Source: Candidatus Absconditabacteria bacterium
GTDB taxonomy: Bacteria > Patescibacteriota > Gracilibacteria > Absconditabacterales > Absconditicoccaceae
Direction: 5' to 3'
DNA length: 41,575 nt
NCBI GenBank assembly: GCA_028685875.1
Contig: JAQUDD010000008.1
Span: forward strand, 1-41,575
The notes under the pieces are model-generated. The model did no database searches. It was not told where the DNA came from and saw only the letters and a list, made by a program, of their open reading frames with translations. Shown here piece after piece: positions 38,574 to 41,565 of this stretch. Position 1 is the stretch's first letter; every line of letters begins with the position of its first letter. The position numbers and the translations under genes are program-made.

Positions 38574-38646
38574 GCCAACATAGTTCAGTAGGTAGAACGC
38601 ACCCATGGTAAGGGTGAGGTGGCCGGTTCGATCCCGGCTGTTGGCT
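38574..38646 (+). tRNA. tRNA-Thr (anticodon GGU)
   Basis: Acceptor GCCAACA/TGTTGGC, D arm GTTC-AGTAGGTA-GAAC, anticodon arm CACCC-ATGGTAA-GGGTG with anticodon GGT, and T arm GCCGG-TTCGATC-CCGGC. No CCA encoded. It reads ACC and ACU, which make up five of the nine Thr codons of the thrS leader peptide. Confidence 0.95.
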
Positions 38647-41246: not shown

Positions 41247-41378
41247 TATAGCCCCCTCTTCCGCTTCGCTCTCCCGCAGCTTGTGCGGGACAGGCTCTCT
41301 CCCCCTCTCAGGGGAGAAAGCATCTATTTCCTCCCTGTTAGGGGAGGTGACCCGCTAAAGCGGGTCGGAGGGGTTATA
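41247..41378. repeat. 132-bp palindromic (MITE-like) element in the thrS leader
   Basis: The ends are imperfect inverted repeats: TATAGCCCCCTC at the left and, on the other strand, TATAACCCCTCC at the right. Inside are smaller hairpins (CCCGCAGCTTGTGCGGG, CCCGCTAAAGCGGG and CTCCCCT/AGGGGAG types). No ORF. It lies between the attenuator terminator and thrS, so the thrS mRNA carries it. Confidence 0.75.
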
Positions 41379-41396
41379 GCAAGAAGACCTTTCTGA

Positions 41397-41433
41397 ATGA
41401 AAAACCTCTCCCAGCTAAGTAGGTAGAGGTTTT
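41397..41433 (-). terminator. attenuator terminator before thrS
   Basis: On the reverse strand AAAACCTCT (41433-41425) pairs with AGAGGTTTT (41409-41401) in a 9-bp stem, extended by CC/GG after one mismatch, and continues into five U. It lies between the leader peptide and thrS with no other gene between, so it acts inside the thrS transcript. Confidence 0.85.
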
Positions 41434-41461
41434 AAGTATGGTTCTACAAAAAACGCCTACC
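41422..41461 (-). promoter_or_regulatory. antiterminator of the thrS attenuator
   Basis: GGTAGGCGTTTT (41461-41450) can pair with AAAACCTCTACC (41433-41422). Eleven of twelve positions pair, including one G-U, with a single C-C mismatch. The second segment is the first arm of the terminator, so the two structures exclude each other. The first segment contains the leader peptide's TAG stop, so a ribosome finishing the leader blocks this pairing. Confidence 0.82.
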
Positions 41462-41507
41462 CCATCAAGGTGGTGGTACTAGTCGTCGTTGTAGTTGTAT
41501 GTTTCAT
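41457..41507 (-). CDS. threonine-rich leader peptide of thrS
   Basis: A 16-residue peptide, MKHTTTTTTSTTTLMG, ending in TAG. Nine of its residues are Thr, encoded by ACA, ACU, ACA, ACG, ACG, ACU, then after one Ser three ACC; all four Thr codons occur. It sits 23 bp after the start predicted from its promoter and directly before the antiterminator. Low charged tRNA-Thr should stall the ribosome on these codons, free the stop region for antitermination and switch thrS on. The layout equals that of amino-acid operon leaders such as thrL of E. coli, but E. coli thrS itself is controlled translationally and Firmicutes thrS by T-box. Confidence 0.9.
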   Translation of the reverse strand: MKHTTTTTTSTTTLMG

Positions 41508-41537
41508 CCGGAAGAGTTCAGAGAACTAAACATCGGG

Positions 41538-41565
41538 ATTGTAGGGTTTTTTTGAGAGAAAACAA
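41538..41565 (-). promoter_or_regulatory. promoter of the thrS leader transcript
   Basis: On the reverse strand TTGTTT (41565-41560), 16 bp, TACAAT (41543-41538). A small hairpin, AGTTC-TCT-GAACT, follows between the promoter and the leader ATG. Confidence 0.7.

Follow-up and report, generated by a model that had tools for sequence, protein, structure and literature searches.

In the genome of this absconditabacterium, the threonyl-tRNA synthetase gene thrS is very probably controlled by a ribosome-mediated transcription attenuator that would set its expression by the supply of threonyl-tRNA. In the window (the whole stretch of DNA analysed, 41,575 nucleotides), thrS is preceded by a short Thr-rich ORF and three mutually exclusive helices, and the same elements are conserved and co-vary in cis in related genomes. 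An earlier note on this DNA had interpreted the region as a threonine attenuator, a view supported both by the conserved stems of relatives and by the fact that no promoter was recognised past the terminator. At the sequence level, the elements that characterise a ribosome-mediated attenuator are all present, namely an ORF rich in the cognate codons, a terminator, an antiterminator that excludes it, a stop codon in segment 2 and a protector helix 1:2. The bacterium reads UGA as Gly (SR1-type code). The relevant features are:

41538..41565, minus strand: putative promoter, TTGTTT (41565-41560), 16-nt spacer, TACAAT (41543-41538)
41457..41507, minus strand: leader ORF MKHTTTTTTSTTTLMG, 16 codons, 9 of them Thr codons of all four types, with a TAG stop at 41459-41457
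41444..41494, minus strand: 1:2 protector or pause hairpin, the Thr-codon region paired with the segment after the stop codon
41422..41461, minus strand: 2:3 antiterminator hairpin, 41461-41450 paired with 41433-41422, with the leader stop codon in its 5' arm
41400..41433, minus strand: 3:4 intrinsic terminator, 41433-41425 paired with 41409-41401 plus CC/GG, then UUUUU
41253..41385, minus strand: repeat with short palindromes between terminator and thrS, with an 86% copy at C6:42292-42426 and further, shorter ones at other places in the genome
39318..41210, minus strand: thrS, threonyl-tRNA synthetase, 630 aa, with two in-frame UGA codons

The leader ORF and its alternative hairpins

The leader ORF (minus strand, 41507-41457) reads ATG AAA CAT ACA ACT ACA ACG ACG ACT AGT ACC ACC ACC TTG ATG GGG TAG, so that the previous description matches the sequence exactly: of its 16 codons nine specify Thr, and each of the four Thr codons occurs (ACA, ACT and ACG twice each, ACC three times). 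Its ATG is the first start, since an in-frame TAG lies upstream. When the whole genome was read (all 16 contigs, 1,025,715 bases), the Thr enrichment of this ORF reached p = 7.8e-10. It has the strongest Thr bias among 14,906 short ATG ORFs, nested starts included, and ranks second among them for any amino acid; the top-ranked ORF is Ala-rich and lacks a terminator. Across the 807 genes with 180 or more codons that were scanned in the same genome, the thrS leader is the sole unit combining p<3e-5 with a terminator ahead of the gene, and only there does the enriched amino acid obviously fit the downstream gene; no second cognate leader-terminator-gene unit for another amino acid was found among them. 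The genome as a whole carries no Shine-Dalgarno signal (5.3% vs 7.6% in the control), and the missing Shine-Dalgarno sequence before the leader is therefore normal and no argument against its translation.

Downstream of the Thr codons, the leader can adopt competing structures. The 12-position antiterminator has 11 pairs and a single C.C mismatch, and the leader stop codon (41459-41457) sits within its 5' arm, which is segment 2. Segment 3 is common to 2:3 and 3:4, making antiterminator and terminator mutually exclusive. The predicted energies of the hairpins lie near one another (-15.1 kcal/mol for 1:2, -13.1 kcal/mol for 2:3 and -14.1 kcal/mol for 3:4), and the U tract that follows the terminator is modest (UUUUUCAUU, five U only). 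Folding of the 110-nt leader gives -30.8 kcal/mol (z = -4.1), an energy equalled by none of 200 shuffles. The window leader is predicted to form 1:2 together with 3:4, and to form 2:3 once segment 1 is covered and segment 4 is unmade. On the ribosome-free leader, the 1:2 helix is the most stable predicted partner of segment 2, which completes the full four-segment layout of classical attenuators. The coordinates given in the earlier note for the antiterminator (41450-41461 with 41422-41433) and for the terminator stem (41425-41433/41401-41409) proved exact, the latter being extended by the CC/GG pairs. The overlap of the antiterminator with the stop codon is likewise confirmed, and the shared segment 3 and the folding of both states agree with the competition that had been proposed. 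Thus, the earlier description of the switch was right as to antiterminator and terminator but overlooked the 1:2 hairpin at 41494-41444.

In the proposed mechanism, RNA polymerase would start ~25-30 nt ahead of the leader ORF and a ribosome would follow. If threonyl-tRNA is scarce, the ribosome would stall in the run of Thr codons and cover segment 1, leaving segment 2 (GGUAGGCGUUUU, which spans the leader stop codon) free to pair with the newly made segment 3; with 2:3 formed, no terminator would arise and thrS would be transcribed. If threonyl-tRNA is plentiful, a ribosome at the UAG would mask segment 2, 3:4 would form and transcription would end before thrS. Should no ribosome initiate, 1:2 would form and the terminator would win again. 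In this scheme we infer that the promoter is active, that the leader is translated, that ribosomes stall on it, that transcription and translation are coupled, and that threonine limitation induces thrS.

In E. coli, the thrS operator consists of tRNAThr-like stem-loops at the thrS ribosome binding site, which are bound by ThrRS, and with this precedent the hairpins described here could in principle be protein sites through which ThrRS, bound to its own leader, would block translation or favour termination, with the short ORF of secondary importance. In the window, however, the hairpins lie at the leader ORF and the terminator and not at the thrS start 190 nt downstream, and such mimicry leaves unexplained both the run of Thr codons and the stop codon within the antiterminator arm. 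It is accordingly a very improbable account, and attenuation by the translating ribosome is preferred.

The promoter of the window is plausible and sigma-70-like, yet weak by consensus: when the 60 nt upstream were Markov-randomised, 7% of the versions scored as high. A stricter consensus scan for promoters and terminators, whose rules exclude a bulged stem and a weak -35, recovers neither element. Contig C5, and with it the window, ends 10 bases upstream of the -35, and the sequence can be followed no further in that direction. The order of promoter, ORF, antiterminator, terminator and thrS set out in the earlier note thus holds, although the promoter is weaker than it implied.

Conservation of the leader in related genomes

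The regions upstream of thrS were gathered from 59 related genomes and 80 named GTDB records. Inspection by hand or scoring of Thr enrichment identified a Thr-rich leader with competing hairpins ahead of thrS in 32 hand-checked genomes (21 + 11 distinct), which belong to SR1/Absconditabacteria, to Gracilibacteria and to families near them within the class. The comparison suggested by the earlier note therefore does find runs of Thr codons and conserved alternative stems ahead of thrS. One example comes from the complete genome of SR1 bacterium RAAC1_SR1_1 (L015/L125), with the leader MMHLGTTTTTTTSQ up to its stop codon. Another, the L030 leader MNGITTTTTTTTNHIW, likewise ending at a stop codon, contains an in-frame UGA and is open only if UGA encodes Gly. 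The 32 leaders carry 3 to 9 Thr codons and vary in length, in Thr-codon choice and in flanking residues. Their ORFs stop just before or within a segment like GGTAGGAGTTT, which is complementary to segment 3, and a hairpin with a U tract is present in all 32, the predicted terminator being weak in L013, L047 and L120. Folding of both alternative structures returned, for the window and for nearly all of the 21 leaders folded, 1:2 plus 3:4 in full and 2:3 with segment 1 hidden and segment 4 unmade. Roughly half of the thrS loci examined in family f1 have no recognisable leader, including the same-genus L011, which suggests that this control is dispensable or has shifted upstream of an operon.

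The thrS genes of Firmicutes are under T-box control, and since a terminator and a competing stem exist here too, a T-box or another tRNA- or metabolite-binding riboswitch might be imagined to drive termination, with the Thr codons incidental. The evidence speaks strongly against this. No T-box appears in the window up to E=1 or in 19 relatives at gathering scores, and a search of the Rfam families, T-box and Thr_leader included, gave no relevant match in the window or in those relatives. The element is just ~110 nt long, and 32 genomes retain the run of Thr codons although they differ in its synonymous codons and in the residues beside it. A riboswitch is thus extremely unlikely.

Pairing statistics support the helices themselves. 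In a swap test that compared the duplex energy of each cis partner with that of partners from other genomes, own partners pair better for 2:3, 3:4 and 1:2, with 0 of 20,000 permutations as good in each case. In an alignment of 13 sequences, the 1:2 helix shows two-sided changes at 6 of 8 pairs, and 1:2 and the terminator together show compensatory changes in 15 cells vs 5.6 in shuffles. Relatedness may inflate such counts, and the swap test suffers least from it. In 13 relatives, 94% of the antiterminator cells are paired, but this helix is nearly invariant there and so has no covariation of its own.

One further possibility is that the terminator ends an upstream unit, that thrS has its own promoter downstream of it and that the Thr-rich ORF arose by chance. 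The weak promoter upstream of the leader would fit this, as would the 190-nt gap between terminator and thrS start in the window, which is unusually long because of the inserted repeat (41253-41385, ~130 bp); a cryptic promoter may lie within that repeat. A consensus scan, however, recognised no promoter between terminator and thrS in the window. A promoter in that position, which the earlier note had named as grounds for abandoning its reading, is also improbable in several relatives, where thrS follows the U tract closely: its ATG lies ~25 nt away in L023, and thrS is similarly near in L033 and L036, so close that an extra promoter is unlikely there. Several gracilibacterial relatives have strong promoters ahead of the leader instead (TTGACA-16-TATATT, ~27 nt upstream), the whole arrangement is conserved in 32 genomes, and its helices co-vary in cis. 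A separate thrS promoter with a fortuitous ORF is therefore hardly credible beside attenuation of thrS itself. An Rfam match in the repeat to a hepatitis C element (E=0.088) was attributed to chance.

Distribution across the class and the phylum

A covariance model was built from 13 relatives, leaving out the window, and run on 353 genomes of the class. It recovers the window at E=1.3e-6. Further matches checked singly add thrS leaders in families f5, f7, f14 and f19, with as many as ten Thr codons in the G060 leader MYICLTTTTTTTTTTI; most leaders across the class have 5-10, and two f14 members have 3-4. Matches with E above ~1e-3 are mostly chance terminators, and the stronger matches L226, L227, L232, L254 and L255 were inspected and dismissed as such.

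Some leaders stand before operons rather than directly before thrS. In G049, G092 and G096, other short genes stand between the leader and thrS, which is the last gene of a small operon. In G070 and G071 (L235, L236), the operon that the Thr leader would control consists of a NUDIX-like gene with thrS behind it; the NUDIX-like product might act in nucleotide sanitising or repair. Thr leaders also precede the gene of a small zinc-finger/HTH protein (L238-L241, L243, L246; G242, G049, G243), with thrS further downstream in G049 and, in G242, a model match before thrS on another contig. In family f28 (G263:C2:61113-61207 and G264:C1:78236-78327; L216, L217, L242, L247), a Thr/Ile-rich leader, MNAAKIIITTTTTTTIM, and a terminator precede a gene identified by Pfam as aspartokinase-homoserine dehydrogenase, with threonine synthase two genes on in G263. 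By its layout, this is a classical thr operon attenuator that follows the logic of the E. coli thr operon. Outside the class, L249 (G617:C8:79372-79468) has a leader, MNKIFLTTTTTTIFFSY, ahead of a HAD-type phosphatase gene possibly involved in serine or homoserine metabolism. In L248 (G609:C21:102221-102444), two leader-terminator units, one with MKIKSINTTRSTTTP and the other a second match to the model, lie in tandem ahead of a gene of unassigned function.

The same filter detected no leader at any of 69 thrS loci drawn from across the phylum, almost all of them from outside the class, which speaks against phylum-wide occurrence; sporadic thrS leaders outside the class occur in G380 and G396. 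On the thrS tree, the trait is clustered yet patchy, requiring 12 changes vs 18.6 expected on shuffling (0 of 500 shuffles as low), and some apparent absences are presumably leaders too short or too far upstream for recognition. The leader is thus common in the class, patchy within it and rare elsewhere in the phylum. It is likely, if less firmly so than for the window itself, that leader-peptide attenuation is a class-wide system of these Patescibacteria (SR1/Absconditabacteria, Gracilibacteria and neighbours), with thrS as its main target and the threonine biosynthesis operon as the target in one family. If true, the candidate phyla radiation would gain its first system of this kind. Such a system would imply that transcription is coupled to translation in these tiny and partly recoded genomes, and it would include at least one leader legible only with UGA as Gly.

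Threonine physiology and comparison with known systems

The thrS product matches Pfam tRNA-synt_2b, HGTP_anticodon and tRNA_SAD, and exceeds the cut-off of TIGR00418. Three tRNAThr species, with anticodons UGU, CGU and GGU, are encoded in the genome:

15928..16000, minus strand: tRNA-Thr(CGT)
38574..38646, plus strand: tRNA-Thr(GGT)
L101:17023-17095: tRNA-Thr(TGT), the third of the genome

It is the charging of these three species that the leader would sense, and because it reads all four Thr codons it would sample all of them. The genome also encodes a 74-nt tRNA with anticodon UCA (L088:17426-17499), labelled SeC by ARAGORN, which is probably its UGA-reading tRNAGly.

Neither a homoserine dehydrogenase nor the N-terminal domain of threonine synthase was found in the genome, so the organism is likely a Thr auxotroph and thrS a logical control point. 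A cell that imports threonine can tune only uptake and charging, which makes the synthetase a reasonable target. The leader would be a natural threonyl-tRNA sensor in likely auxotrophic, host-dependent cells and a well-supported, gene-specific regulatory circuit in a lineage about whose gene regulation very little is known, one that predicts tight coupling of transcription and translation there. Both the covariance model and the leader motif lend themselves to annotating thrS operons across the class.

Several known systems resemble this one. The E. coli leader thrL, which controls thrABC biosynthesis and reads Ile codons as well, shares with the present leader, as does the Rfam Thr_leader family, a Thr-rich ORF, a competing antiterminator and terminator and the same presumed logic; here, in contrast, the controlled gene is the thrS of a likely Thr auxotroph, and the Rfam Thr_leader model gives no match. 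In enterobacteria, pheST is subject to leader-peptide attenuation (pheM) by its own amino acid, a case alike in the control of a synthetase gene by a leader peptide but different in amino acid, gene and lineage. The same likeness and the same differences apply to the leader-peptide attenuators of leuS and trpS in Streptomyces (PMC1262725). In bacilli, hisS has a leader peptide in place of a T-box (PMC2965389), which resembles the present case in placing a leader peptide before a synthetase gene outside Proteobacteria; that leader concerns histidine and Firmicutes. T-box-free leader-peptide control of synthetase genes would thus reach well past Proteobacteria, Actinobacteria and Firmicutes.

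The closest precedent is Streptomyces lividans, in which a leader peptide, thrL, has been proposed upstream of thrS (PMC8079986, Table 4). That peptide, MKRVRPFLETTPGFVPAR, has two Thr only, is leaderless and comes with one hairpin and no U-rich tract according to the authors (PMC8079986), so that it lacks a clear terminator. A literature search that reached few subscription journals found no published leader-peptide attenuation in Gracilibacteria, SR1 or candidate phyla. The earlier note had held a peptide-leader attenuator of thrS to be undescribed; as far as that search reached, this holds for the lineage, but not for a peptide leader of thrS as such. Compared with the single-species proposal in S. 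lividans, the leaders described here have a terminator, an antiterminator, comparative support and mostly 5-10 Thr codons. Ultimately, the mechanism is an ordinary one, and what is new is the lineage together with a well-supported thrS target that includes a terminator.
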